Origin: Candidatus Falkowiibacteriota bacterium | GTDB lineage: Bacteria > Patescibacteriota > Patescibacteriia > Patescibacteriales > VMTK01 | Length of the DNA: 44,913 nucleotides | Direction of reading: 5' to 3' | Assembly (NCBI GenBank): GCA_013791585.1 | Contig: VMTK01000043.1 | Span: 1-44,913, forward strand | Shown: positions 1 through 18,469 of the stretch, piece after piece | Layout of the letters: every line of letters starts with the position of its first letter | Numbering within the stretch: position 1 is the first letter of the stretch | Program-made: the position numbers and the translations under genes | Notes under the pieces: generated by a model | Seen by the model: the letters and a program-made list of their open reading frames with translations, nothing else | Database searches by the model: none | What the model was told of the DNA's origin: nothing

Positions 1-5
1 ACATC

Positions 6-150
6 GCACAACACGGTGTATCTGGCTCCAGAAAATTTACTTTATTAATTATTAAATAGGAGTAAAATTTTCTTCCAACCCAAATTTTTGATATAATTAT
101 TAATGATAATAATGAATATCAAAAACTTCAGATACACCGATACGTTGTGC
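6..150 (+). other. attC site 1
   Basis: R'' GCACAAC (6-12) pairs perfectly with R' GTTGTGC (144-150). L'' CGGTGTATCTG (14-24) pairs with L' CAGATACACCG (129-139). The top has two stem-loops: AGAAAATTTACT against AGTAAAATTTTCT, then after CCAACCCAAA a second stem TTTTTGATAT against ATATCAAAAA. It closes a cassette that starts left of the window. Confidence 0.8.
92..97 (+). promoter_or_regulatory. Extended -10 promoter inside attC 1
   Basis: TATAAT preceded by TGA forms an extended -10 (TGATATAAT) within the second apical stem of attC 1, about 130 bp upstream of the first cassette gene. No good -35 is seen. It could drive the 232-1579 gene pair. Confidence 0.4.
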
Positions 151-215
151 GAAATAATGAAAAGTTTTATAATTTCTTACAGAAATTAATTTGGGGCTAT
201 ATTTTTAAATTTTTA
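144..215 (+). repeat. Cassette 1 left terminal arm (inverted partner at 1583-1658)
   Basis: The first ~70 bp of the cassette match the reverse complement of its last ~75 bp. Matching blocks are GTTGTGCGA, TAATGAAAAGTTTT and ATTTGGGGCTATAT, then T-rich sequence. Between the blocks each arm holds its own small hairpin: AATTTCT/AGAAATT here and ATTTTGC/GCAAAAT in the partner. In a circular cassette the two arms would extend the attC stem. Confidence 0.75.
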
Positions 216-231
216 ATATTAACTAAAAACT

Positions 232-510
232 ATGAAAAAAATCACAAAAACATTCTGGTACATTTTTGGTTCATTTATAGCGTTTGCCTTCAATCAGACT
301 GGGGTATCTGCACAAATGCAAACAGAATATGGAATTGAACCAATGCCATTGTATGGTGTTGATTTTATATCTGAGCCAACCTTATGGGAAAGAATACTTT
401 CTGTAATTCTTTCACCAATTGTTATGGTCATAATAATTGTTTTGGCTATAGTTATCGGAACAGTTATTTTTATCAAACGAAGTAGAAAAAATGCTAAAAA
501 AAATTCTTAA
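232..510 (+). CDS. Small secreted/membrane peptide, possible radical SAM substrate
   Basis: This 92-residue protein has an N-terminal signal peptide (about residues 1-27, likely cut after VSA), a short exposed stretch, and a C-terminal TM helix (about 55-82) followed by a basic tail KRSRKNAKK. The mature N-terminus has a doubled Tyr-Gly pattern (EYGIEPMPLYGVDF). Its end overlaps the start of the downstream radical SAM gene by 20 bp, so the two are probably translationally coupled. From memory, Bacteroidetes rSAM/lipoprotein pairs have small exported partners with similar YG motifs; here a TM anchor would replace the lipid anchor. That makes it a candidate peptide substrate, but the function is inferred. 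No lipobox is visible and there is no clear Shine-Dalgarno sequence before the ATG. Confidence 0.6.
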   Translation: MKKITKTFWYIFGSFIAFAFNQTGVSAQMQTEYGIEPMPLYGVDFISEPTLWERILSVILSPIVMVIIIVLAIVIGTVIFIKRSRKNAKKNS

Positions 511-1579
511 ATTAGGGAGACAAAAGATCTGGCAAGCACATCGTGATTACCTTCGAGAAAATCATGAACTCAAATATCTTTTTTGGGAGTGTACTTTGAA
601 TTGTAATTTTAAATGTAAACACTGCGGAAGTCGTGCTGGTGAAAATATTTTTACTGAAGTTATTAGCACCGAAGAAATTAAAAAAGCATTATTAGATATT
701 GCTCAACATTTTGATGCCAAAAAAATTACCATAGCAATAACAGGAGGCGAGCCTCTTTTGCGAAAAGATCTTTTTGAAGTTATGAAATATGCCAATTCTC
801 TTGGTTTTCAATGGGGAATGGTTTCTAACGGCTCACTTGTTACTCAAGAAATTGTTGAAAAAGCCAAAGATGCTGGCATGGTAACGATTGATATAAGTAT
901 TGATGGAATCAGAGATGTTCATGATGAATTTCGCAACACAAAAGGTGCTTATGAAAAAGCAATAAACGCTGTTGGGCTTTTTGCAAAAGCTGATTTTTTA
1001 AACCCGCTCCGAATTACAACAACGATACATAATAAAAACATTGATACCCTTGATGAAATGTACGAATCTTTTTCTGCCTTAGGAATTAGTGATTGGCGTA
1101 TTTTGAATGTAGATCCGATTGGAAGAGCTATTTGCAATAACGACATTCTTCTCAATAAAAAACAATTTACTAGACTTTTGCAATTTATGAAAAACAAGAG
1201 AGCAAAAAAGCCGAAAGTAAAAATCACCTTTGGATGTGCTCATTTTTTGGGCGATGATTTTGAAGACGAAGTAAGAAATAATTTTTTCTACTGCGGAACA
1301 GGAATTAACATTGGAAGCATCCTCCATAATGGCGATATTTTTGTTTGTCCAAATGTTCCAAGACAAAGTAATCTTATACAAGGTAACATTAAAAAAGACT
1401 CTTTTTCAGATATTTGGAATAATAAATTTGAATTTTTTAGAGATGAAAATCGCACTGCTTGTGAAAAATGCCAAAAATGCGATTATTGGAATGAATGTTT
1501 AGGTGGCTCTTTTCATTCATGGGATTTTGAAAAAAAACAACCAAAAGTTTGTTTTTTAGACAAAGATTTATATTTATAA
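491..1579 (+). CDS. Radical SAM/SPASM domain peptide-modifying enzyme (putative)
   Basis: This 362-residue protein carries the radical SAM cluster motif CNFKCKHC (Cys38, Cys42, Cys45), followed by a GGEPLL-type SAM-binding motif near residue 85. The C-terminus is a cysteine-rich SPASM-like region (CGTGIN..., FVCPN, then CEKCQKCDYWNEC and a final VCF) that would hold auxiliary [4Fe-4S] clusters. SPASM enzymes typically modify ribosomally made peptides, and here the start lies inside the end of a small membrane-peptide gene, which fits an enzyme/substrate pair. The N-terminal HELKYLFWECTLNC block resembles the rSAM/lipoprotein-system enzymes of Bacteroidetes (recollection, not a search). The pair forms one integron cassette, so it may have been acquired laterally. 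The enzyme class is clear; the substrate is inferred. Confidence 0.85.
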   Translation: MLKKILKLGRQKIWQAHRDYLRENHELKYLFWECTLNCNFKCKHCGSRAGENIFTEVISTEEIKKALLDIAQHFDAKKITIAITGGEPLLRKDLFEVMKYANSLGFQWGMVSNGSLVTQEIVEKAKDAGMVTIDISIDGIRDVHDEFRNTKGAYEKAINAVGLFAKADFLNPLRITTTIHNKNIDTLDEMYESFSALGISDWRILNVDPIGRAICNNDILLNKKQFTRLLQFMKNKRAKKPKVKITFGCAHFLGDDFEDEVRNNFFYCGTGINIGSILHNGDIFVCPNVPRQSNLIQGNIKKDSFSDIWNNKFEFFRDENRTACEKCQKCDYWNECLGGSFHSWDFEKKQPKVCFLDKDLYL

Positions 1580-1582
1580 AAA

Positions 1583-1658
1583 TTGGAAAAAATTTAATAA
1601 TATAGCCCCAAATATTTTGCTACCGCAAAATTAAAAACTTTTCATTACATCGCACAAC
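1583..1658 (+). repeat. Cassette 1 right terminal arm
   Basis: This is the inverted partner of 144-215. It runs from just after the radical SAM stop codon into R'' of attC 2 and contains the nested hairpin ATTTTGC-GGTA-GCAAAAT. It may also act as transcriptional punctuation, but there is no clean T-tract. Confidence 0.75.
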
Positions 1659-1738
1659 ACGGCATATCTGGTTACGGCTTTTTACAAAAGCCTCCACCCA
1701 AATTGCTATGCAACTTCAGATATGCCGAAACGTTAGCT
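1652..1738 (+). other. attC site 2
   Basis: R'' is GCACAAC (1652-1658), L'' CGGCATATCTG (1660-1670), L' CAGATATGCCG (1717-1727) and R' GTTAGCT (1732-1738). R'' matches the R' of attC 1, while its own R' matches the R'' of attC 3, as expected when each cassette carries its own TTRRRY half. The top is GGCTTTT/AAAAGCC, then TCCACCCAAA, then TTGC/GCAA. The rest of the stretch to 1992 is the left arm of cassette 2 and AT-rich leader. Confidence 0.85.
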
Positions 1739-1803
1739 GAAATATTCCTTTTCTTTTCTGGCTATCGCCCAATTGTTTTAAAAAATTTTAAAATTTCTTT
1801 TTC
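1732..1803 (+). repeat. Cassette 2 left terminal arm (inverted partner at 3558-3632)
   Basis: GTTAGCTGA, TATTCCTTTTCTTTT and a 31 bp block beginning TTGTTTTAAAAAATTTTAAA all recur in reverse complement at the other end of the cassette. The two blocks flank a small hairpin (GGC-TATC-GCC) here and CCCGAC-AGCA-GTCGGG in the partner arm, at the same distance from the R box. Confidence 0.8.
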
Positions 1804-1992
1804 ATTAATTATAGAGGGGTATAAGGTGTTTTCTCCGCTTTGCTACGAAAACGATTTTATTAGAAAAAAGTAAGATGTCTATTGACTTTTATGTCAGTTG
1901 TGATAATCTTTAATGTTCTTTGAAAAGTGAATATAAGTTCAAAAAGATGCCTTTTAAATAAACTGAAATGATACAAATAGGAGGATGCGAAA

Positions 1993-2743
1993 ATGAGCCA
2001 AAACGAAATTATATGCGTAACGACCTTTCGACAAGGCAATCTAGAAAACATAGTTGAAAGAACTAGAAGCGAAGTTTTTTTTTGATACAGTTTACAGAAT
2101 ATTGGATGCAGGATTATCCCTTGTTGTTATCCATATCGAAACCAGAGATTCTGTTTTAATGATGCTCCAAAAACTTGGTGTAATTCTTGTTGAGCAACAA
2201 ACCATGGGAATGGGAAATATTCGCAGAGAAGCGTTATCGGGATCTCGAATGCATTTTCCAAATGCTCAATATTTTTGCTGGCTCGAACCGGAAAAACCAG
2301 ATTTGGTGCGGTTCATTGTTCCGATGGCCAATCAGATGAAGAAAACGCAGTCTGATTTTGGCATCTTCAACAGGATTGATATGGCAAGTTATCCGACTGA
2401 GCAAGCGCATTATTATCTTTTTTGTCGTGCGGTAGCAACACAACTTGTCGGTTTTGATATTGATTATGCTTTCGGTCCGATGATGATGACGCCTGCAACA
2501 ATTTCATTTTTTTTGGAATATTCGGGCGGTAGGTACGGCGACAAATGGGATTCAATTTTAGTTCCGCGCTTACGCATAATAAAAGGCGGGATAAAATTTT
2601 CGGTACTGCCGGTGAACTTTCAAAATGATGAAAGAATGACACGCGTAGAATCTGGTAATGTCGCCATAACTCTTAAGAGGTTGGAACAATTTAACAATGT
2701 CATTCCTTCTCTTATCGCTGAGTGGCAATTTCTAAATGAATAA
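1993..2743 (+). CDS. Glycosyltransferase-like protein with apparent frameshift in a T9 run
   Basis: A strong Shine-Dalgarno sequence (AGGAGG, 7 nt spacing) precedes ATG 1993, which opens MSQNEIICVTTFRQGN and then stops at a TGA just after a run of nine T (2075-2083). The long downstream frame (229 codons from a TTG at 2054) has no good start signal. Removing one T joins the two into a ~250-residue protein that reads smoothly (RSEVFFDTVYRILDAG). The joined sequence resembles a GT-A type glycosyltransferase: an N-terminal beta-alpha start with ICVTTFRQGN, a WLEPEKPDLV stretch and a C-terminal FGPMMMTP segment. The family is uncertain. It may be a sequencing error, a pseudogene, or a gene using slippage. 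A terminator at 2762 follows it, and a Nudix gene shares its cassette. Confidence 0.55.
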
Positions 2744-2761
2744 TATTCATAGCATATCTTG

Positions 2762-2796
2762 GCCATCATCTCAAAATTTGGGATGATAGCTTTTTT
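2762..2796 (+). terminator. Rho-independent terminator after the glycosyltransferase-like gene
   Basis: Stem GCCATCATCTC / GGGATGATAGC (with G-T pairs), loop AAAATTT, followed by six T. It separates the two genes of this cassette. Confidence 0.8.
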
Positions 2797-2805
2797 GTGC
2801 CTCTG

Positions 2806-2814
2806 TGTTATAAT
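2806..2814 (+). promoter_or_regulatory. Extended -10 promoter for the Nudix gene
   Basis: TGTTATAAT (TG-n-TATAAT) lies directly after the terminator and about 70 bp before ATG 2884. No strong -35 is seen. It suggests that the second gene of this cassette is transcribed separately. Confidence 0.5.
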
Positions 2815-2883
2815 TATAAAAACTTTCCAAAGACTATCTGGGAAAGCAATGAATTAATTACCTAAATTTTAATATTAGCTTTT

Positions 2884-3486
2884 ATGCAAATACCAACTAA
2901 TGTTTCATTAAAACAGGAAGGGCAATACTGCACACACTGTTTTTCACAAAAAGTTGAAAGAACTTATCAAAACGGCTTAACATATTATTATTGTCAATCG
3001 TGTGGCAAGACCGCAGAAAGAAGTTTGGTTATTGACAATAATATTGTTTGGTGGATAGACAAAAAAACCAATGAGTATTGGCACGAAAGTGTGGGCATTT
3101 TTGTTTTTAATTTTAAAAATAAAGCCCTTTTTTTTGAAAGAACTATATATCCTTTTGCCTTTGCTATTCCAGCAGGACATCTTGACGCAGGAGAAAATGC
3201 GGAAATGGCTATAAAACGAGAATTAAAAGAAGAAACAGGAATCGAATCTGATAATGTTAAACTTTTTTCAGAGGAAGATGTCATTGGAGATAAATGTCGT
3301 CGTGGAGCCGACAATCACAGATGGCATCTTTATGTTACTAAAACTGAAAGTACTGATGATAGTGTTAAAATAAATGACGAAGGAGTAAGACCTGTTTGGC
3401 TCACTCTTAATGAAGCATTAGAAAAAGAACTTGTGTTTCCTGTCCGGTATTTTATTGAAAAATATGGCGAAAAACTTTTAAAATAA
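2884..3486 (+). CDS. Nudix hydrolase with N-terminal zinc ribbon
   Basis: This 200-residue protein starts with a four-cysteine zinc ribbon (Cys16, Cys19, Cys37, Cys40) followed by a Nudix fold. The Nudix box is complete, G98-x5-E104-x7-R112-E113-x2-E116-E117-x-G119, so the Mg-dependent pyrophosphatase site looks intact. The ribbon-plus-Nudix layout recalls NudC-type NADH pyrophosphatases, but the substrate cannot be read from sequence. It has its own promoter after a terminator, is the second gene of cassette 2, and is followed by a conserved-loop hairpin (3508-3555) and the right arm of the cassette. The start ATG is the first in frame. Confidence 0.88.
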   Translation: MQIPTNVSLKQEGQYCTHCFSQKVERTYQNGLTYYYCQSCGKTAERSLVIDNNIVWWIDKKTNEYWHESVGIFVFNFKNKALFFERTIYPFAFAIPAGHLDAGENAEMAIKRELKEETGIESDNVKLFSEEDVIGDKCRRGADNHRWHLYVTKTESTDDSVKINDEGVRPVWLTLNEALEKELVFPVRYFIEKYGEKLLK

Positions 3487-3507
3487 GCAAGGATAATAAA
3501 AAAGGAG

Positions 3508-3555
3508 TTTTGGATTTTGATCATTCACCCCTACCCCTCTGCCCAAAATCCAAAA
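3508..3555 (+). repeat. Hairpin with conserved loop, copy 1
   Basis: Perfect 12 bp stem TTTTGGATTTTG / CAAAATCCAAAA enclosing a loop that contains CATTCACCCCTACCCCTCTG. A second copy at 8536-8584 keeps the loop but has a different, still perfect, stem. No T-tract follows, so it does not look like a simple terminator. Confidence 0.75.
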
Positions 3556-3557
3556 CG

Positions 3558-3632
3558 GAAAAAGAAATTTTAAAATTTTTTAAAACAATCCCGACTGCTG
3601 TCGGGAAAAAGAAAAGGAATACATCAGCTAAC
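3558..3632 (+). repeat. Cassette 2 right terminal arm
   Basis: Inverted partner of 1732-1803, running into R'' of attC 3. The nested hairpin is TCCCGACTGCTGTCGGGA. Confidence 0.8.
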
Positions 3633-3711
3633 ACGGCATATCTGGTTACGGCTTTTTACAAAAGCCTCCACCCAAATTGCTATGCAACTTCAGATATGCC
3701 GATACAGTGTG
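3626..3711 (+). other. attC site 3
   Basis: R'' is AGCTAAC (3626-3632), complementary to the R' of attC 2, which is the other end of the same cassette. L'' and L' and both apical stems are nearly identical to attC 2. The R' side is degenerate (CAGTGTGA where GTTGTGTGA would be expected), consistent with a small deletion at the joint with the next cassette. Confidence 0.75.
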
Positions 3712-3738
3712 AAATAAAATTTTCAACCTAAAAATTTA
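3707..3738 (+). repeat. Cassette 3 left terminal arm (inverted partner at 4157-4188)
   Basis: GTGTGA followed by TAAAATTTTCAACCTAAAAA recurs in reverse complement at 4157-4188. The start codon of the cassette gene is at the inner edge of this arm, and the partner arm contains its stop codon. Confidence 0.75.
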
Positions 3739-4172
3739 TGGAAATTGAAGTCGACTACAACCCAACGCCGAGCACGTCATTTTTTATATCAGTTTCAGTA
3801 AATGACACGGAAGCCATTTCTTTTGATTATACGACTAAAGCCCACCGCATAATTAGACAAGTTTTAGTTGATAAAAAATCTTTTCCCATAAACCAAATGA
3901 TAACTTCTGAATGGGATACGCTCGTTCTGAAAGACGGAAAATTTGTACAAAAATATCACGTTAAATGGATAGACATGGACAAACGAGATTGGTGTAATGA
4001 TGAAATTTGGGAGACTGTAAAAGAACAACCTATTTCTAAGGAATTAACTGAAAATCTTTTAAGATATTCCCGTATAGTCTCAGATAACTATAAATTTTTG
4101 CACAAATTTTCTGACGAGGTAAAAAGTTTTGAGCAACTATTATCAAAAGAAATGGCTAAATTTTTAGGTTGA
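3738..4172 (+). CDS. Hypothetical cassette protein
   Basis: This 144-residue soluble protein has no signal peptide or TM segment, and I recognise no family. The N-terminal half looks beta-rich (MEIEVDYNPTPSTSFFISVS) and the C-terminal half is helical and charged. It fills its cassette almost completely: the ATG is at the inner edge of the left arm and the TGA lies inside the right arm, so expression probably depends on a promoter in or upstream of attC 3. No Shine-Dalgarno sequence is evident. Lone unknown ORFs of this size are typical integron cargo. Confidence 0.7.
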   Translation: MEIEVDYNPTPSTSFFISVSVNDTEAISFDYTTKAHRIIRQVLVDKKSFPINQMITSEWDTLVLKDGKFVQKYHVKWIDMDKRDWCNDEIWETVKEQPISKELTENLLRYSRIVSDNYKFLHKFSDEVKSFEQLLSKEMAKFLG

Positions 4173-4188
4173 AAATTTTACATCACAC
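4157..4188 (+). repeat. Cassette 3 right terminal arm
   Basis: Reverse-complement partner of 3707-3738. It overlaps the 3' end of the hypothetical gene and runs into R'' of attC 4. Confidence 0.75.
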
Positions 4189-4392
4189 AACACCGCGATA
4201 AGCGGTTCCAGAAATTTACATAAATTAAATTTTTTCCGCTCCGCTACAAAATAATAATAAGGAGTATAAATTTCTTTCACCCAAATTGCGCTGACGATTA
4301 TTAAAGTTTAGTGATATAATAAAGATAAGAGGATAGCCAGTATTTAAACTAAATAAAACGGCGCAACTTCGCTTCATCGGGAAACGTAATGT
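4185..4392 (+). other. attC site 4
   Basis: R'' is ACACAAC (4185-4191). L'' begins CCGCGATAAGC and L' is GCTTCATCGGG, with imperfect pairing. R' is GTAATGT (4386-4392), one base from the complement of the attC 5 R''. The top has AAATTTA/TATAAATTT, then TTCACCCAAA, then TTGCGC (4286-4291) against GCGCAA, with a long loop that contains a promoter. At ~208 bp it is the longest site apart from the MITE-split one. Confidence 0.65.
4291..4320 (+). promoter_or_regulatory. Promoter inside attC 4
   Basis: CTGACG (-35-like, 4291-4296), an 18 bp spacer, and TATAAT (4315-4320) with TG one base upstream (extended -10). It points to the two-TM gene at 4457. Confidence 0.5.
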
Positions 4393-4456
4393 GTAATATT
4401 ACTCGAAGCCCTCGCCTTTAGCAAAGTTTATATAATATCTTAACTTAAATAAAATC

Positions 4457-4750
4457 ATGAAGATGAATATAAAAAACTTTTTTAGATTTAATAAAATCAA
4501 AATAATCTTTACGCTATTGTTTCTATTAGTATTTTTACTCTTTAAAACCGAAATTCCTGTCTTTGATGCTACATACATTAAACATGGTTTCCCACTTCCC
4601 TTATTAGAAAGACGGATAGATACTGGTTGGGACATAGGACATACAAGCTATAGAGTATTGCCGCTTGGGATGGTTGTCGATGTACTTTCTTGGTATTTAA
4701 TTTCCTGTTTAATAATGTCCGTTTATAGTAAATATAAGAAACCAGTTTAG
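4457..4750 (+). CDS. Two-TM small membrane protein, function unknown
   Basis: This 97-residue protein has a TM helix at about residues 12-30 and a second at about 71-90, joined by an extracytoplasmic segment containing HGFPLPLLERR. The second helix is preceded by RVLPLGMVVD. The termini are basic (KMNIKNFFRFNK and YSKYKKPV), predicting both ends in the cytoplasm. I do not recognise a named family. It is the sole gene of cassette 4 and can be transcribed from the promoter inside attC 4. A second possible start lies two codons downstream (ATG 4463). Confidence 0.7.
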   Translation: MKMNIKNFFRFNKIKIIFTLLFLLVFLLFKTEIPVFDATYIKHGFPLPLLERRIDTGWDIGHTSYRVLPLGMVVDVLSWYLISCLIMSVYSKYKKPV

Positions 4751-4812
4751 GCTCGGGCTCCTGCGTCATACTATCGGTCGTTTTGCTCCCTCGTTCGCCT
4801 TGCAGGTTCACC

Positions 4813-4899
4813 ACATAACAGCGATTAAGAGGAAAATTCTTGCAGAATTTTCCCAAATTTTGACTTCGTCAAAACTTCTCATAATCGCATACGTTATAT
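4813..4899 (+). other. attC site 5
   Basis: R'' is ACATAAC (4813-4819) and R' is GTTATAT (4893-4899). L'' GCGATTA pairs with L' TAATCGC. The apical stems are GGAAAATTCT/AGAATTTTCC, then CCAAA, then TTTTGAC/GTCAAAA. Sequence just upstream (4751-4812) is a variable tail without arms. Confidence 0.8.
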
Positions 4900-4969
4900 G
4901 AAATAAAATTCTTTCTTTTTTCTTTTTTATAGAGGGGAAATAAAGTATTATAAATTCATAATCGTAAAA

Positions 4970-5056
4970 CTGGAATCAATTTATAAACAAAAAATAACGG
5001 ATCTGGAGGAGCTTAAAAAATCGGTTTTAAAAATGGCTTTTAGCGGGGAACTGTAA
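4970..5056 (+). pseudogene. hsdS: hsdS C-terminal remnant (type I restriction specificity subunit)
   Basis: The open frame (from about 4931) reads ...LESIYKQKITDLEELKKSV followed by LKMAFSGEL and a TAA at 5054. This is the characteristic C-terminal end of HsdS subunits, a coiled-coil spacer then K-x-AFSGEL. No start codon or DNA-recognition domain is present, so it is a decayed 5'-truncated scrap. A 31-codon ORF follows directly (ATG 5058) without a recognisable match. The remnant sits in cassette 5 between attC 5 and the AAA+ gene. The match to HsdS is from memory of the family end motif. Confidence 0.7.
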
Positions 5057-5162
5057 TATGCGCAAAAAAATAGATAAAATTGCGCAAAAGTACGATTATT
5101 TGGAAAAATTCAAACAAGAAATTGTCATAAAATATGTCTATTTTAAGCCATAAAATTGATGA

Positions 5163-5191
5163 TTGACATTACTTGAATAGTATAATATACT
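5163..5191 (+). promoter_or_regulatory. Promoter of the cassette 5 ATPase
   Basis: TTGACA (5163-5168), 17 bp, TATACT (5186-5191), 33 bp before ATG 5225. It is the best sigma-70-like promoter of the array. Confidence 0.7.
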
Positions 5192-5224
5192 ACAAACATA
5201 TAATTGTTGAATAGTTAAATATAT

Positions 5225-6649
5225 ATGAAACAAGAATTGATCCAATATCTGCAAAAGCAAATTTTAACCACCGATGATCGGTTAAAGCACTTTACTCACA
5301 GCCCGGCAGGAGAAAAATATCCTCAGCGTTTTTTGTATGTAAAATTGCAAAAATATATCAATGATTTTTTGGATAAAAAATCTAGCAATAGAATGGTGAT
5401 AATTCCCGGCTTCAGAGGCGTGGGAAAAACAACATTAATGGCTCAGATTTGTTCGGAATTTAAAAAGAAAGACGTTCGGGTTTTTTTCTTGTCCGTAGAA
5501 GATTTGAGAAATTATTTTGATGCAGGCATTAATGAAATAATTTCCGCTTATGAAAAGATTATCGGTGAATATTTGGAAAGCCTAAAAAAACCGATAATAA
5601 TATTTTTTGACGAAGCGCAGACTGATCCAAAATGGGCAATCACCCTGAAATCATTATTTGAGAGAACGAATAATGTTTTTTTATGCGTCACGGGATCTTC
5701 AGCGATTGTCCTGCAATCAACGCCGAATATTGCCAGAAGAGCTATTTTTGAGCCAATGACGCCAATGTGCTTTGGGGAATATCAGATGATAAAAAGTAAA
5801 ATCTATCCGACTCCGGGGTTGAAAAATAAAATAAGGCAAGCGATTTATTTTTCGCCGACAGCCCGGGAAATTTATAAAAATCTTTCTGATTTGGAAGGAA
5901 TAGTTAATAGTTATTGGTCAAATATAGATAGAAATGACATTAAAAAATATTTGTCATACGGAACATTTCCTTTCGCGCAGATAATGCCGGATGAAATTTC
6001 AATTTATAATAATATATCACTGCTGCTTGAAAAAATTATCAAACAAGATATGCCTACTCTTGGAAGTTTTAATCAAGAAACACTCGGCGCAGTAAAGAGA
6101 ATTTTGTTCGCAATTGCAGAAAATGATGTTACGAGTTTGACTACTCTGGCAGATAAATTTGGCATTAGCCGTTTAACTTTGGCTAATATTTTCGATGTCT
6201 TGGAAAAAGCGGAACTCTTGGTGAAAATTCCTCCGCATGGATCAAATATGACTATCGCCAATAAGCCAAATAAATATTTATTTATGAGTCCGGCAATAAG
6301 AATGTCATTCTTTTACTTTTCCGGGAATGAAGGAACCTATTTAACGAGGCAAGGAAAATTATTGGAAGATTCTATAGGAGCGCATTTATATAGAGAGTTC
6401 ATCTTGAGAGGTGATGGAATTATTCGTTATGACAGCGCTCAAGGGGGAGCAGATTTTATTTTACAAATAGGAAATACTAAAAAGATTATTATAGAGGTTG
6501 GGCTTGGGAATAAAGACAAAAAACAAGTAATGGGAACTATGCGTAAAATTAAATCAGATTATGGAATTGTTTTTTCAAGTAGTCCTTTGATGATTGATAA
6601 AGAAGAGAAAATTGTTAATGTGCCGCTTGACTATTATTTTCTAATGTAA
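5225..6649 (+). CDS. AAA+ ATPase, AAA_14/DUF4143-like
   Basis: This 474-residue protein has Walker A GFRGVGKTT (62-70), a hydrophobic Walker B PIIIFFDEAQ (123-132) and a sensor-like CVTGSSA about 30 residues later. A winged-helix-like stretch follows (FGISRLTLANIFDVLEKAEL), and the C-terminal domain ends with GGADFILQ...KKIIIEVG, similar to the PD-(D/E)xK-like tail of DUF4143 ATPases. Such proteins are widespread in mobile and defence-associated DNA, but their role is mostly unproven. The gene has its own promoter and shares the cassette with an hsdS scrap. Nothing indicates truncation. Confidence 0.85.
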   Translation: MKQELIQYLQKQILTTDDRLKHFTHSPAGEKYPQRFLYVKLQKYINDFLDKKSSNRMVIIPGFRGVGKTTLMAQICSEFKKKDVRVFFLSVEDLRNYFDAGINEIISAYEKIIGEYLESLKKPIIIFFDEAQTDPKWAITLKSLFERTNNVFLCVTGSSAIVLQSTPNIARRAIFEPMTPMCFGEYQMIKSKIYPTPGLKNKIRQAIYFSPTAREIYKNLSDLEGIVNSYWSNIDRNDIKKYLSYGTFPFAQIMPDEISIYNNISLLLEKIIKQDMPTLGSFNQETLGAVKRILFAIAENDVTSLTTLADKFGISRLTLANIFDVLEKAELLVKIPPHGSNMTIANKPNKYLFMSPAIRMSFFYFSGNEGTYLTRQGKLLEDSIGAHLYREFILRGDGIIRYDSAQGGADFILQIGNTKKIIIEVGLGNKDKKQVMGTMRKIKSDYGIVFSSSPLMIDKEEKIVNVPLDYYFLM

Positions 6650-6689
6650 AAATATGAACGAAGCAGAAACAAGAGAAAAGGAATACATC

Positions 6690-6925
6690 AGCTAACACGG
6701 CAGGCTGTCTAAAATGTATACAAAACGATAAATTTATTGTGTAATATGGGGATAACTAAAAATTTTATTGCTAAAATTAGCACACCAAATTTTCTGAAAT
6801 CAAAAAATTTTTAGTTATTAGACAGCCTGACGGCATATCTGGTTACGGTTCGCCTCTGGCGAGCCTCCACCCATATTTTACTTCGCTTCGCTCCGTAAAA
6901 CATCAGATATGCCGAAACGTTAGGC
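6690..6925 (+). other. attC site 6, interrupted by a MITE
   Basis: R'' is AGCTAAC (6690-6696) and R' is GTTAGGC (6919-6925). L'' is interrupted just after ACGG by a 129 bp element and resumes at 6830 as ACGGCATATCTG, pairing with L' CAGATATGCCG. Apical stems are GGTTCGCC/GGCGAGCC, then TCCACCC, then TTTTAC/GTAAAA. The 20 bp upstream (GAAAAGGAATACATC) are shared with attC 3. Confidence 0.8.
6701..6829. mobile_element. MITE inserted in attC 6
   Basis: A 129 bp element bounded by perfect 12 bp inverted repeats CAGGCTGTCTAA / TTAGACAGCCTG and flanked by a 4 bp target duplication ACGG (6697-6700 and 6830-6833). Removing the element and one ACGG restores a normal attC (AACACGGCATATCTGG). A second inverted pair inside it, ATAACTAAAAATTTT (6752-6766) and its complement (6804-6818), gives further folding. 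It has no coding capacity; the parent transposase family is not identified. Confidence 0.85.
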
Positions 6926-6987
6926 GAAATTCTAACCCCCACCTAAAAATCATTAAATTTATATAAATTAGAAGAACCTTTATTGAT

Positions 6988-7455
6988 ATGGAATTTAAAA
7001 TAAAGCAAATTGGAATAATTCATAGCCCATATAAAACCAACGAGGGGTGTCCTATTCAAGGTAATATAAACCCTAAAAGTAAAGGACAAATTGAATTATT
7101 TCCAGAATATGAATATGGATTAGAAACAATTGAAACATTTTCACATATTATCTTGTTTTACATTTTTGATAAGGCTGGAGATATTAAATTATCTCGCCCA
7201 ACATTTTTAGATGATTCTTCACATGGTGTTTTTGCATCTAGACATCCTTGCAGACCAAACAGCATAGGTATTTCAATTGTAAAACTAGAAAAGAGAAATA
7301 AGAATATTCTGGAGGTATCTGGGATAGATATATTTAATAATTCTCCTCTAATTGATATTAAACCATATATTCCGAGATTTGATTATTTTAAGAATGCAAA
7401 TAATGGATGGACAGAAACGAAAAAGATTCGTCCAAAACCTAAAGGGAGAGAATAG
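6988..7455 (+). CDS. trmO: TrmO/TsaA-family tRNA N6-threonylcarbamoyladenosine-37 methyltransferase
   Basis: This 155-residue protein spans the TrmO (YaeB/TsaA) beta-barrel domain: IGIIHSPY at the N-terminus, FSHIILFYIFD mid-way, the signature HGVFASRHPCRPNSIGIS (79-96) and PLIDIKPYIPRFD near the end. The family uses SAM to methylate t6A37 of some tRNAs. Length matches the short single-domain version; the C-terminal extension of the E. coli enzyme is absent. It is the only gene of cassette 6 and stops shortly before attC 7. A translation-modifying enzyme as integron cargo is plausible but unusual. TsaA-like domains may have other substrates. Confidence 0.88.
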   Translation: MEFKIKQIGIIHSPYKTNEGCPIQGNINPKSKGQIELFPEYEYGLETIETFSHIILFYIFDKAGDIKLSRPTFLDDSSHGVFASRHPCRPNSIGISIVKLEKRNKNILEVSGIDIFNNSPLIDIKPYIPRFDYFKNANNGWTETKKIRPKPKGRE

Positions 7456-7513
7456 AATGGTGAGGGTCAGAACTCAAAGGGGCGCTGCGCTTTCGGACTT
7501 CGTCCCCACCCTT

Positions 7514-7607
7514 GTATAACAGCGATTAAGAGGAAAAATCCTCGGCTCGGATTTTTCCCAAATTTCTTCCGCTTCGCTCCAGAAACTTCTCTATCGCGAT
7601 GTTATAC
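7514..7607 (+). other. attC site 7
   Basis: R'' GTATAAC (7514-7520) pairs perfectly with R' GTTATAC (7601-7607). L'' GCGATTAAGAG pairs with L' CTCTATCGC. Apical stems are GGAAAAATCC/GGATTTTTCC, then CCAAA, then TTTCT/AGAAA. It is the same subtype as attC 5. Upstream (7480-7510) a GGGGCG...CGTCCCC hairpin ends the trmO cassette. Confidence 0.8.
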
Positions 7608-7690
7608 GCAATTCAAAAAATATTTTTCTTTTATAAGGAGTTTTGAAAAATGAAATTCAACCCAGACGCCTAATATGGTAAAATAAATAT

Positions 7691-8521
7691 ATGCCAAAAA
7701 ATAAAACTATAAACGTAAAAGGAACCAAAATCACGATTATAAAACAGGGCGATTCCGACTATGACTATATTTCCCTGACTGACATGATTAAGGCGAAGGA
7801 TGGTGATTTTTTTATTTCCGACTGGCTGAGAAATAGAAATACGGTTGAATTTTTGGGTATTTGGGAAAGAATTTATAATCCTAATTTTAATTATGGCGAA
7901 TTTGCCATAATTAAAAGCAAGGCGGGGTTGAACAATTACAAAATAAGCGCAAAAGAATGGGTGGAAAAAACTAACGCCATAGGATTGAAAGCTACAACAG
8001 GAAGATATGGAGGAACTTACGCGCATAAAGATATTGCCTTTGAATTCGGAATGTGGATCAGCGCGGAATTTAAAATTTATCTCATCAAAGAATTTCAGCG
8101 CCTTAAAGAAAACGAAGCGGAAAATCTGAAACTCGGGTGGAATATCCAAAGAACGCTGACAAAAATTAATTACAAAATTCACACTGACGCAATAAAAGAA
8201 AACCTAATCCCGCATGAACTGACAAAAGATCAGGTTAGTATGAAATATGCTAACGAAGCGGATTTGCTCAATGTGGCCTTATTCGGAATAACCGCAAAAA
8301 TATGGCGAGACCAAAATCCGAAGTTAAAAGGAAACATTCGAGATTATTCCACGATTGAACAATTGGTAGTTTTATCTAATCTTGAGAGTATAAACGCATT
8401 GTTAATTCGCGAAGGACTTACTCAGCAAGATCGAATTTTAAAATTAAATAATACTGCAATAATTCAGATGAAATCGCTTTTAACAAGTAACGGAGCAAAA
8501 AAACTGGGATCGCCAAAATAA
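7691..8521 (+). CDS. KilA-N domain protein
   Basis: This 276-residue protein has an N-terminal KilA-N-type domain: DYISLTDMIKAKDGDFFISDWLRNRNTVEFLG (about 24-55), then GRYGGTYAHKDIAFEFGMWIS (about 104-124), the usual conserved end of the fold. The C-terminal half is helical and ends in a basic tail. KilA-N domains are DNA-binding modules common in phages and mobile DNA; the role of stand-alone bacterial versions is poorly known. It is the single gene of cassette 7. A seven-codon ORF with AAGGAG upstream (ATG 7650) may be a chance leader. A conserved-loop hairpin follows the stop. Confidence 0.88.
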   Translation: MPKNKTINVKGTKITIIKQGDSDYDYISLTDMIKAKDGDFFISDWLRNRNTVEFLGIWERIYNPNFNYGEFAIIKSKAGLNNYKISAKEWVEKTNAIGLKATTGRYGGTYAHKDIAFEFGMWISAEFKIYLIKEFQRLKENEAENLKLGWNIQRTLTKINYKIHTDAIKENLIPHELTKDQVSMKYANEADLLNVALFGITAKIWRDQNPKLKGNIRDYSTIEQLVVLSNLESINALLIREGLTQQDRILKLNNTAIIQMKSLLTSNGAKKLGSPK

Positions 8522-8535
8522 ATCATAATAAGGAG

Positions 8536-8584
8536 TTTTTTATTTTTGGCATTCACCCCTAACCCCTCTGTCAAAAATAAAAAA
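8536..8584 (+). repeat. Hairpin with conserved loop, copy 2
   Basis: Stem TTTTTATTTTTG / CAAAAATAAAAA around a loop containing CATTCACCCCTAACCCCTCTG (one base longer than copy 1 at 3508-3555). The stems of the two copies differ by compensating changes while the loop is kept, and both sit just after the last gene of a cassette, behind AAGGAG. Confidence 0.75.
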
Positions 8585-8654
8585 CAAAAAAACAAATTTT
8601 CTTTTAAAATAGATAGAGTTATTGCAATAAACACAGAGATAAAAAATTTACATC

Positions 8655-8804
8655 GCACAACACCGAATATGAGGTTCCGGAAATTTGCATTAATATAATT
8701 CATAAGGAGCGCAAATTTCTTCCACCCAAATTTTTATTTCTCTTTTCTCTAAAATAAAATTGAGGAAAAGAAATAAAAACTTCTCATATCCCGAAATGTT
8801 ATAC
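8655..8804 (+). other. attC site 8 (last of the array)
   Basis: R'' is GCACAAC (8655-8661) and R' is GTTATAC (8798-8804). L'' CCGAATATGAG pairs with L' CTCATATCCCG. Apical stems are AAATTTGC/GCGCAAATTT, then TTCCACCCAAA, then TTTTTATTTCT/AGAAATAAAAA. Beyond it, 8805-8875 shows nothing recognisable. Confidence 0.8.
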
Positions 8805-8875
8805 GCAATAATAAAAAGCATCTAATACGAATTACCGCGTACGCCTCTTCATGTTTACGAAAAAATTCATGACAA

Positions 8876-10253: not shown

Positions 10254-11378
10254 TTATTTCTTTTTAATAATATTATTAATAATTTCAACAATCCTATCGT
10301 TCGCCCCTTTCTTGATAACCGTTTTAATATTACTGCTCAACTTATTTTGCAGTTCTCTGTTGTTTAATAATTTTTTAATATTTTCAACTAGTTTTTCAGC
10401 CGTCAATTCTTTTTGATTTAATACAATAGCCGCTTGTTTTTCTTTAAAAATTTCCGCGTTATCTTCTTGATGGGAATCAGGCATGGGAATCAAGATAGCC
10501 GGCTTGCCAAGATATGACAATTCAGTCAAAACTCCCATGCCGGCTCGAGAAACCGCGATGTCGGCGGCGGCATACGCCTGGCTCATTTGTTCCGCGTTGA
10601 GAAACTCGCGTAACGCGTAACGCGTAACGCGTAACGATTTAGAATATTGTATTTTTTTGTTTTTTCCGGTTACATGAATAATATTGCAAAATTTTGTTAA
10701 CTCGCCTATGCTTTGCTCAATTAAACTATTAATCGCCACCGCGCCTGTCCCTCCGCCAACCGCCAACACAACTGGCAAATCATTTTTAAAATTAAAAATT
10801 TCTTGTGTTTTCGTGTTTTCGTGTTTTCGTGTTTTCGTGTTTTCGTGTTTTCGTGTTTTCGTGTTTTGCGCCGGGTTTCCCGTCCAAACCGCCTTCTTGC
10901 CGTAATCGGCCAGAGATTTTTCAAAAGTAACTGTAATAACGTTCGCGAACGGCGCCATTAGTTTATTAGCCAGACCATGGCGAACATCCTGCTGGTGGAT
11001 TAAAACAGGTACGCGCAACAGCCATGCCGCCCAGACAACAGGCACGCTTACAAAACTGCCGGCGCTCATTACCAAAGCGGGTTTTTCTTTTATTAATATG
11101 GCTAAAGATTGAAAAAAAGCAAAAATAATTTTAAATAAATCTATAAAATTTTTAATGGAAAAATATCTTCTGAATTTTCCGCTCGCAATTGAAATAAATT
11201 TAATATTTTCTTTTTGAACCATCTGCTTTTCAACTCCATTTCTTGTGCCAATCCATGTAAATTTAAACTTTCCGACATCCGACATCCGACATCCGACATC
11301 CGAAATAGCCAAAAGCGGCGCCACGGATCCGCCTGTGCCTCCGCCGGTTAATAATATTTTTTTAATGTTTTTTTGCAT
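10254..11378 (-). CDS. murG: MurG, UDP-GlcNAc:undecaprenyl-PP-MurNAc-pentapeptide GlcNAc transferase
   Basis: MurG makes lipid II from lipid I at the inner face of the membrane. The 374-residue protein has the N-terminal glycine loop LLTGGGTGGSVAPLL, the SAGSFVSVPVV and HQQDVRHGLANK segments, a second-domain loop VLAVGGGTGA and the UDP-GlcNAc signature (VSRAGMGVLTELSYLGKPAILIPMP in two parts). Three tandem DNA repeats lie inside it in frame: a 7 bp repeat near residue 30 (CRMSDVG), an 8 bp repeat in the domain linker (NTKTRKHE repeated), and the GCGTTACG-type repeat giving RVTRYALRE. A second copy of its 5' end lies beyond the NYN gene at 12110-12183, so the gene was probably once directly behind ftsW. 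Confidence 0.95.
   Translation of the reverse strand: MQKNIKKILLTGGGTGGSVAPLLAISDVGCRMSDVGKFKFTWIGTRNGVEKQMVQKENIKFISIASGKFRRYFSIKNFIDLFKIIFAFFQSLAILIKEKPALVMSAGSFVSVPVVWAAWLLRVPVLIHQQDVRHGLANKLMAPFANVITVTFEKSLADYGKKAVWTGNPAQNTKTRKHENTKTRKHENTKTQEIFNFKNDLPVVLAVGGGTGAVAINSLIEQSIGELTKFCNIIHVTGKNKKIQYSKSLRVTRYALREFLNAEQMSQAYAAADIAVSRAGMGVLTELSYLGKPAILIPMPDSHQEDNAEIFKEKQAAIVLNQKELTAEKLVENIKKLLNNRELQNKLSSNIKTVIKKGANDRIVEIINNIIKKK
10607..10638. repeat. GCGTTACG-type tandem repeat inside murG
   Basis: Four copies of CGCGTAA-C (period 8) within the coding sequence. The same repeat is found in many intergenic gaps of the window (for example 13413, 15270, 17175, 18540, 25866, 28190, 30900). Confidence 0.8.
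10805..10867. repeat. 8 bp microsatellite GTGTTTTC, 7.9 copies, inside murG
   Basis: Seven exact copies of GTGTTTTC plus a partial eighth, encoding (NTKTRKHE)n on the - strand. Because 8 is not a multiple of 3, gain or loss of one unit would shift the murG frame; three units give eight codons. Confidence 0.9.
11272..11305. repeat. 7 bp tandem repeat CCGACAT inside murG
   Basis: Four copies of CCGACAT followed by a variant CCGAAAT, in frame in the N-terminal domain of MurG. It is related to the ATTTCGG repeat in hydA (complement CCGAAAT). Confidence 0.85.
11311..11360. repeat. Direct repeat copy A (murG 5' end)
   Basis: About 50 bp encoding LLTGGGTGGSVAPLL, nearly identical (two differences in the first 47 bp) to 12110-12159. 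The two direct copies bracket the NYN gene. Confidence 0.85.
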
Positions 11379-12086: not shown

Positions 12087-12183
12087 CGCGAAACACATTA
12101 TCAATAACTAAAAGCGGCGCCACGGATCCGCCCGTGCCTCCGCCGGTTAATAAAATTTTATATTTCTGCTTTGTATAACCCAT
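12087..12183 (-). pseudogene. murG: murG 5' fragment
   Basis: The - strand ORF from ATG 12183 reads MGYTKQKYKILLTGGGTGG then SVAPLLVIDNVF, matching residues 6-28 of MurG, after which similarity ends near the NYN promoter. It sits 83 bp behind ftsW, where murG would be expected in an ftsW-murG order. It is best explained as the old murG start cut off by the NYN insertion, with the functional gene restarting at 11378. Confidence 0.8.
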
Positions 12184-13408: not shown

Positions 13409-13496
13409 AACTCATAACGCGTAACGCGTAACAAAAATTATTTAATTCTTTAAGTTAACGAATTAAAGAGTTATCCCCGTTAGATAAATTATCTAT

Positions 13497-13688
13497 ACGG
13501 GGTGAACGAGTTGATTAAATTTTAAACAATAACCCGTTAACTCGCTAACTCGCTAACTAAATAATATTTTAATTATCTATAAATTATGCGTTACGGGGTG
13601 AACGAGTTGATTAAATTTTAAACAATAACCCGTTAACTCGCTAACTCGCTAACTAAATAATATTTTAATTATCTATAAATTATGCGTT
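13497..13688. repeat. 96 bp tandem duplication
   Basis: Two near-perfect copies (13497-13592 and 13593-13688) of a 96 bp unit containing TGAACGAGTTGATTAAATTT and CCGTTAACTCGCTAACTCGC, in the ftsW-mraY gap. Each unit can fold through GTTAACGAGTTA-like halves. A related element precedes pilC (17196-17290). This gap contains no gene. Confidence 0.85.
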
Positions 13689-17170: not shown

Positions 17171-17296
17171 CTTCTCGTAACGCGTAACGACGAAAATTAT
17201 TTAGTTCTTTAGTTAACGAGTTAATCAAATTTTAAAAAATAACTCGTTAACCCGTGAACTCGCTAACTAAAGAATATTTTAATTATTTATTAATAT

Positions 17297-18469
17297 ATGT
17301 CTATAAATTTATCTTCCGCCAATCAAGAAGAAGAGCAAACAAAATCAAGCGATAAAAAAACAGCTGAAACGTCTCCGGCATCCGAAGAAAAAACATTTAT
17401 TGATAAAATGAATAATTTTTTGCTGCGCCTCAGCCGCGTTCCGCTTACTGAAAAATTATTTTTTGTGCGGCATCTCGGCGTTATGATGAAGGCGGGCATC
17501 TCTCTGTCAGCCGCTCTTTCAACTTTGGCAAAACAGACAAAAAATAAATATTTCGCCAAAATTCTTAATGATGTCTCAAGCCAAGTGGAAAAAGGCACAA
17601 CATTGTCTGAAAGCTTAAAAAAACATGAAAAAGTTTTTGGCGAACTTTTCATAAATATGATTGAAGCCGGGGAAATGTCCGGCAAACTGGAAGATGTTTT
17701 TGATCGGCTTTATATACAGATGAAAAAACAGCACGAATTAATTTCCAAAGTAAGGGGGGCGCTCACATACCCGGCGGTAGTTATTACCGCCATGATAGGC
17801 ATTGGATCATTTATGATGGTATTTGTGGTGCCGAAAATTTCCGACATGTTCAAGGATTTCAGCGCGGAGCTTCCTTTGCCGACCAAAATATTAATCGGCG
17901 CCAGCGACGCGATAGTAAATAACGGAGTGCTCACCGCTGTTTCTTTAATACTGTTCATTTTCGCTTTTATTAAAATACTGCGTACCTACAAAGGAAAATA
18001 TTATTTTCAGCTGTTGTTGTTAAAACTGCCTATTTTATCGCCTATTATTAAAAAAATAAATTTAGCCAGATTCGCCAGAACCATCAGCTCTTTGTTGAAA
18101 ACTGACATTATGATTGTTAAAACTTTCCAAATAACCGGCAGCATACTCGGCAACTTGCATTACAGGGCGGCATTACTGGAAATGAGCGGCAAGATCAAAA
18201 AAGGCAGCACTATTTATGAAATTATTTCCAATTATCCGCATTTATTCCCGCCAGTGGTAACCCAGATGATATCAGTCGGGGAAGAAACCGGAGAACTGGA
18301 CAATATACTGGAAGAGCTGGCGGAATTCTACGAAAACGAAGTTGATGAAATCATGAACAACCTTCCCTCAATAATTGAGCCGGTGCTAATCTTGATTTTA
18401 GGCGCCGGCGTCGGGGCAATGGCCGTTGCCATAGTTATGCCGATGTATTCCATCACGCAGTCAATGTAG
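17297..18469 (+). CDS. pilC: PilC, type IV pilus inner-membrane platform protein
   Basis: The 390-residue protein has two GspF/T2SSF repeats (about 65-190 and 265-385), each with the LS.AL.TLA / GTTLSESL type motif, and three TM helices (about 165-190, 215-235 and 360-385). PilC is the platform through which PilB assembles pilins. The ~35 residue N-terminus rich in Ser, Glu and Lys is non-conserved. The 126 bp gap after pilB carries a GTTAACGAGTTA...TAACTCGTTAAC hairpin related to the 13497 tandem repeat. Confidence 0.95.
   Translation: MSINLSSANQEEEQTKSSDKKTAETSPASEEKTFIDKMNNFLLRLSRVPLTEKLFFVRHLGVMMKAGISLSAALSTLAKQTKNKYFAKILNDVSSQVEKGTTLSESLKKHEKVFGELFINMIEAGEMSGKLEDVFDRLYIQMKKQHELISKVRGALTYPAVVITAMIGIGSFMMVFVVPKISDMFKDFSAELPLPTKILIGASDAIVNNGVLTAVSLILFIFAFIKILRTYKGKYYFQLLLLKLPILSPIIKKINLARFARTISSLLKTDIMIVKTFQITGSILGNLHYRAALLEMSGKIKKGSTIYEIISNYPHLFPPVVTQMISVGEETGELDNILEELAEFYENEVDEIMNNLPSIIEPVLILILGAGVGAMAVAIVMPMYSITQSM

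Follow-up and report, generated by a model that had tools for sequence, protein, structure and literature searches.

A radical SAM/SPASM enzyme and its putative peptide substrate on a single integron cassette of a Patescibacterium

Overlapping genes for an exported peptide and a radical SAM/SPASM enzyme

The window analysed here is a contig of 44,913 nucleotides from a 1.34-Mb MAG of Candidatus Falkowiibacteriota; its genes and cassette features described below lie on the forward strand. At its left end, an ORF for a 92-residue peptide (positions 232 to 510) and one for a 362-residue radical SAM/SPASM enzyme (491 to 1579) share 20 bp. A sequence-only reading of the window had described an exported peptide with two YG motifs whose gene overlaps that of a SPASM-type radical SAM enzyme, and both ORFs proved to be real.

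The ORF list, hydropathy and motifs, together with a layout and position as in two related Patescibacterial loci (L016 and L017), mark the peptide as a putative substrate of the enzyme. Judging by sequence features, its hydrophobic N-terminus is a presumed signal peptide of 28 residues (232 to 315), ending in GVSA before a Gln. The exposed stretch that follows bears both YG motifs. These are EYG, with Tyr33-Gly34 (residues 32-34; 325 to 333), and LYG, with Tyr41-Gly42 (residues 40-42; 349 to 357), the latter in the context PMPLYGVDF, comparable to the PlpA2-derived splice tag PIRPLYGLPI (PMC10533398). A hydropathy window revealed a single strong transmembrane segment (415 to 480; Kyte-Doolittle peak of 3.48, residues 63-81), followed by a basic tail up to position 507. 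The peptide has no lipobox Cys, and none of the Pfam and NCBIfam profiles matched it above cut-off. YG turned up in about 25-33% of shuffled sequences of its composition, so on its own it supports the case of an individual peptide only weakly. The strict YGxP/YGP motif was found in one of 94 small ORFs across the window.

Pfam placed Radical_SAM (5.8e-23) and SPASM (2.4e-9) domains on the enzyme, both above cut-offs. Its best NCBIfam profile was TIGR04133 (rSAM_w_lipo) with 303 bits, below the 425-bit cut-off; six relatives from Patescibacteria and Clostridia scored 212-360 bits. After TIGR04133, the heme/NirJ-type, TIGR04053 and MftC (136 bits) profiles all outscored the PlpX profile TIGR04103, which reached 128 bits against a cut-off of 725. 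The radical SAM cluster motif C38-X3-C42-X2-C45 (602 to 625) was invariant in both of our alignments (A1 and A2). Aligned rows also identified the SPASM motif CQKCDYWNECLGGS (1469 to 1510) as CX2CX5CX3C with its last Cys replaced by Ser. The SPASM cysteines 268, 286, 327, 330, 336 and 354 are present and the remaining one is this Ser. All TIGR04133-type rows checked likewise have S, A or G in place of the last SPASM Cys, which is kept in PlpX-family, GDL and MftC rows. With this loss, the clade may have a different auxiliary cluster and a different chemistry.

An AlphaFold2 model of the enzyme, with plasmid-derived rows left out of the input alignment, had a pLDDT of 85.8 and a pTM of 0.87 and showed a RiPP-maturase fold, nearest to SkfB, SuiB and anSME. 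Only a helix precedes the core in this model, so the enzyme has no RRE domain. A sequence search of the PDB returned only general radical SAM relatives.

An attC-bounded cassette with long terminal inverted repeats

The two genes lie between attC sites at 3 to 151 and 1649 to 1739. The first, recognised by its bottom-strand DNA fold with paired R and L boxes, forms the 3' end of the previous cassette, and its R' core belongs to the radical SAM cassette. The second scored 95 bits with a covariance model and also folds on the bottom strand. With its boundaries placed at G|TT in both R' cores, the cassette spans about 145 to 1732, or about 1588 bp, and its own R' GTTGTGCG and R'' CGCACAAC are exactly complementary. 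The sequence-only reading had called the pair one cassette, and a mobile module if the peptide is the substrate; the flanking attC sites go further than that reading could on the cassette and lend support to mobility. No attC flanks were detected at the nearest enzyme relatives (L014, L016 and L017), and capture into the array therefore looks lineage-specific. In the first of these relatives (L014, G116, 100-1500), a transposase insertion splits the peptide gene, leaving the enzyme gene intact.

The whole array covers positions 1 to 8805. Its part beyond the radical SAM cassette (1733 to 8805) encodes NUDIX, AAA_14/DUF4143, TrmO_N and KilA-N proteins as well as ORFs without a Pfam match. The covariance model (R1) was built from five window sites, including the one at 3 to 151. 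It regained these five and independently matched 4182-4393, 6817-6926 and, weakly, 7511-7608. Further attC sites in the array lie at 3623-3713, 4182-4393, 4810-4900 and 8652-8805. The match at 6817-6926 belongs to an attC (6690-6926) that is split by a possible MITE, an insert about 130 bp long whose ends are the inverted repeats AGGCTGTC/GACAGCCT. Array sites have complementary R boxes, a folded bottom strand and one orientation. Across the genome, the model matched only the left 8.8 kb of the window contig and one other contig (C15). Rfam and tRNA searches of the window found nothing, and a promoter scan gave eight hits where 9.7 were expected.

The window contig stops short of an integrase. 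An integron-type tyrosine recombinase is encoded on a separate contig of the genome (L062; G000:C72:219-1073), where it lies next to a GTTGTACGAAAT core and the first part of a cassette on the opposite strand. It matched NF040815 above cut-off and TIGR02249 below cut-off, the latter without profile region 178-237. Homologues of this integrase lie opposite attC arrays in other genomes of the order (for example G436 C9, G441 C10 and G390 C9), so that the order has a genuine integron type. AttC-type sites of this kind occurred in 52 of its 109 genomes surveyed, and integrons thus look common among these Patescibacteria.

The cassette also carries terminal inverted repeats. Its left arm (144 to 214) pairs with its right arm (1588 to 1658) at 79% over 71 nt, with a score of 29 against a shuffle maximum of 14. 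Similar repeats, about 20-75 nt long and situated outside the R box, pair 1772-1803 with 3558-3589 and 3707-3738 with 4157-4188, and recur on C15 (L090) and at six further loci (L100-L105). In nine of the 12 cassettes of contigs C48 and C15, the beginning of the cassette repeats, in inverted orientation and well past the 7-nt core, a stretch upstream of the cassette's own attC. Of 36 cassettes from seven genomes (our source genome included), 19 exceeded the 99th percentile of cross-cassette pairings when scored without the core. Such repeats would lengthen the attC stem in a free circle, and they bear on cassette formation and recombination.

Other repeats occur across the window. A 57-bp repeat at 11304-11360, within a MurG-like coding region, recurs with 93% identity at 12103-12159, a possible partial duplication. 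Positions 13496-13687 consist of two identical 96-bp units in tandem, matched by a 76% copy at 17206-17301, and repeats of the GCGTTACGCGTTATGCG type are scattered over many intergenic sites.

Pairing of the enzyme with YG peptides across bacteria

Relatives of the enzyme were sampled from named genome contigs, its own phylum and order, a Clostridial order and plasmids. The closest with named records were Moranbacteria, and 44 of 148 genomes of the Clostridial order contained the family. Viral contigs yielded no relatives, and the radical SAM matches from a phage search were all distant; nothing here points to a phage origin.

All 39 of the TIGR04133-type clade loci examined, spanning Patescibacteria, Clostridia, Bacteroidota and Treponema, had an xYG motif, usually xYGxP, in a neighbouring peptide that is exported or has a lipobox, counting one peptide that is IS-split but recognisable and one that runs off a contig end. 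Two outcomes had been named as contrary to a substrate role: enzyme homologues regularly found without such a peptide, and a lack of conservation in its exposed part. No lone homologue turned up among the 39 loci, and in the exposed part the YG(x)P motif is kept while the rest varies. The partner usually lies directly upstream of the enzyme; it is downstream in L025 and L065. The anchor is a transmembrane segment in Patescibacterial partners, in contrast to a lipoprotein in all other groups.

Patescibacterial partners carry motifs such as NIPMYGSP (L016), VAEYGVT (L017) and IAYGMPVD (L025). At a further locus (L018, 1066-3244), one enzyme is flanked by two YG peptides upstream and a third downstream, all different, with the motifs LYGAP, EYGMP/KYGVP and AYGPV. 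In Clostridia, a YG partner accompanies L019, and at 28 of the other 29 loci it is a lipoprotein bearing one to six motifs, mostly VYGPP; at the 29th, the partner runs off the contig end, with VYGPP motifs in the remaining part. Among 104 Clostridial motif copies, V preceded the Tyr in 95, P followed the Gly in 98 and P came next in 93. Across the Patescibacterial peptides and L019, Pro was the second residue after the Gly in eight of 12. Bacteroidota partners have CEYGSP or CEYGTP, and the Treponema partner CYGMP. A looser test, for any exported small ORF with YG, was positive at two of 25 control loci, yet in four of eight AT-rich 4-kb tiles of the window. Because this test is noisy, we rely on the YGxP motif and its recurrence across loci. 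A related enzyme subfamily (L015 and L026) stands beside transmembrane peptides with IYAPPEV or IYVPG instead of YG.

A phylogenetic tree of 22 rows united the window enzyme with TIGR04133 members from Parabacteroides, Phocaeicola and Treponema in a clade of 13 rows (95/95); MftC fell on a separate branch (100/98). The clade stands beside a PlpX-family/GDL/DUF1843 group, a neighbour relation that rests on few rows in a tree rooted at midpoint only. Partner peptides of that group bear [L/P/M]Y[G/A]. Its Nostoc member (L067), annotated as 'nif11-class peptide radical SAM maturase 3', is 28% identical to the window enzyme and accompanies a nif11 precursor ending in IALYGLPPELF. An Agathobacter rectalis plasmid encodes a PlpX-related enzyme beside a short ORF (L068, 2210-2416) ending in GPVMYGTGVRM, possibly a splicease precursor in a gut bacterium.

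Proposed chemistry and comparison with known systems

From the observed pairing, conserved motif, anchoring features and cassette boundaries, we propose that the two genes form a peptide-modification module occupying one integron cassette, in which the enzyme modifies the Tyr of the YG motifs and the peptide is exported and displayed (probability about 0.6). The overlap of the two genes and the lack of a third gene in the cassette speak for such a module. Points against the proposal are the YAPP or YVPG partners of the L015/L026 subfamily and the rank of TIGR04103 behind other curated profiles. Modification of the xYG motifs would take place in the cytoplasm. The peptide would then be exported and held by its C-terminal transmembrane helix, displaying a modified segment of 30-40 residues outside the membrane. 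That the peptide is the enzyme's substrate is very probable, and the Tyr of YG is a likely target, only slightly less so.

As to the reaction, a PlpX-like excision of tyramine (-135.0757 Da) would leave a surface-anchored α-keto-β-amino acid. PlpXY excises tyramine at XYG (PMC10533398; PMC11002830). Its natural sites are MYG and LYG, and a tag in use is the PIRPLYGLPI sequence mentioned above (PMC10533398; PMC11002830). The window peptide carries two XYG sites, EYG and LYG. We nevertheless put this chemistry at slightly less than even odds because the cassette has no PlpY gene and the last SPASM Cys is replaced. The surface ketoamide could covalently trap proteases or other nucleophiles, and spliceotides are reported protease inhibitors (PMC11117315, citing Scott et al. 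2022). In a Patescibacterium, it could bear on host-cell contact. Such a biological role is speculative, and we consider it improbable in this specific form. Somewhat less doubtful, but still tentative, is a wider proposal: that TIGR04133-type enzymes act as spliceases on substrates anchored in the envelope, producing α-keto-β-amino acids at xYG and a ketoamide surface on ultrasmall Patescibacteria and on Clostridia, here borne by a cassette. If true, the ketoamide-bearing cell surface would act as a protease trap or covalent adhesin. TIGR04133 enzymes may already figure among the 939 splicease systems predicted by Scott et al. 2022, a number we take as quoted by PMC10533398.

The strongest competitor accepts that YG is acted on and differs in the bond made: the Tyr would be cross-linked to the residue two positions on in a cyclophane-type reaction, or oxidised as by MftC, and a cyclised or oxidised product would be displayed on the membrane. 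Cyclophane-forming SPASM enzymes use aromatic-X-X motifs. The higher score of the MftC profile than of TIGR04103 fits this view, as does the lost SPASM Cys that sets the clade apart from the PlpX family, and MftC does act on Tyr (PMC8326336). However, the motif is an invariant Tyr-Gly, usually with Pro two residues later, as in PlpX substrates, and the tree groups the clade with PlpX-family/GDL enzymes rather than MftC. We regard another bond as unlikely, although it deserves more weight than the other alternatives.

A short, divergent, transmembrane-anchored peptide from a family in which no modification is known could instead be a membrane scaffold or cofactor of the enzyme, with the true substrate elsewhere in the genome. 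This is hard to reconcile with up to six motif copies in Clostridial lipoproteins, as expected of substrate cores, with three different peptides for the single enzyme of L018, and with conservation that falls on the exposed YG segment; we hold it to be quite improbable. Finally, integron arrays gather unrelated genes, and the two ORFs of the next cassette look unrelated, which would allow the peptide and enzyme to be chance neighbours. We rejected this extremely improbable explanation on the co-occurrence of the pair across loci: in L016 and L017 it stands outside any array, and it also occurs in Clostridia, Bacteroidota and Treponema.

Under the proposed module, a peptide-modification system is carried as an integron cassette. 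The window cassette shares R/L-box attC sites, G|TT cores and a directional array with known integron cassettes, as well as homologous integrases opposite attC arrays in related genomes; it differs in holding two genes and in the long inverted repeats at its ends, outside the R box.

The best-matching enzyme family and an adjacent exported partner are shared with the TIGR04133/TIGR04134 systems of Bacteroidota and Treponema, whose CEYGSP, CEYGTP and CYGMP partners have YG(x)P near the mature N-terminus. In Parabacteroides and Treponema, these partners are annotated as 'radical SAM-associated putative lipoprotein'. In contrast, the window partner has no lipobox, is transmembrane-anchored, does not match TIGR04134 and sits on an integron cassette. 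A TIGR04134 lipoprotein was absent from its own genome, and related genomes gave two weak matches. The earlier suggestion of a variant of rSAM/lipoprotein systems with a transmembrane-anchored product thus fits, as the enzyme is nearest to TIGR04133, whose known partner is a lipoprotein. The Clostridial VYGPP-repeat loci (L033-L061) share the enzyme clade, the upstream partner gene and the xYG motifs, with 36-41% identity between the window enzyme and aligned Clostridial rows. Their partners have a lipoprotein anchor and one to six repeats, whereas the window peptide has a transmembrane anchor and two YG motifs. Two Clostridial lipoproteins compared with curated NCBIfam profiles had no match above cut-off. 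The literature collection searched contained no paper naming TIGR04133. The rSAM_w_lipo pair is named from bioinformatics; xYGxP gives it a concrete, testable chemistry and connects it both with spliceases and with Clostridial and Bacteroidota substrates anchored in the envelope. In Patescibacteria it takes the form of a minimal unit of enzyme and putative substrate that is easy to express.

MftC resembles the window enzyme as a SPASM radical SAM enzyme with Tyr-directed chemistry on a ribosomal peptide, but it belongs to a separate branch, targets a C-terminal Val-Tyr and has the partner protein MftB. PlpXY is alike in its SPASM radical SAM enzyme, its xYG target, the LYGLP motif of its precursor and its neighbouring branch in the tree. 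PlpX, however, works with the small protein PlpY, whereas the two-gene window cassette has no PlpY-like partner; its substrates have nif11 or nitrile-hydratase-like leaders where the window peptide has a signal-like N-terminus; and its family has a C-terminal extension and still carries the last SPASM Cys, which is replaced by Ser in the window enzyme.
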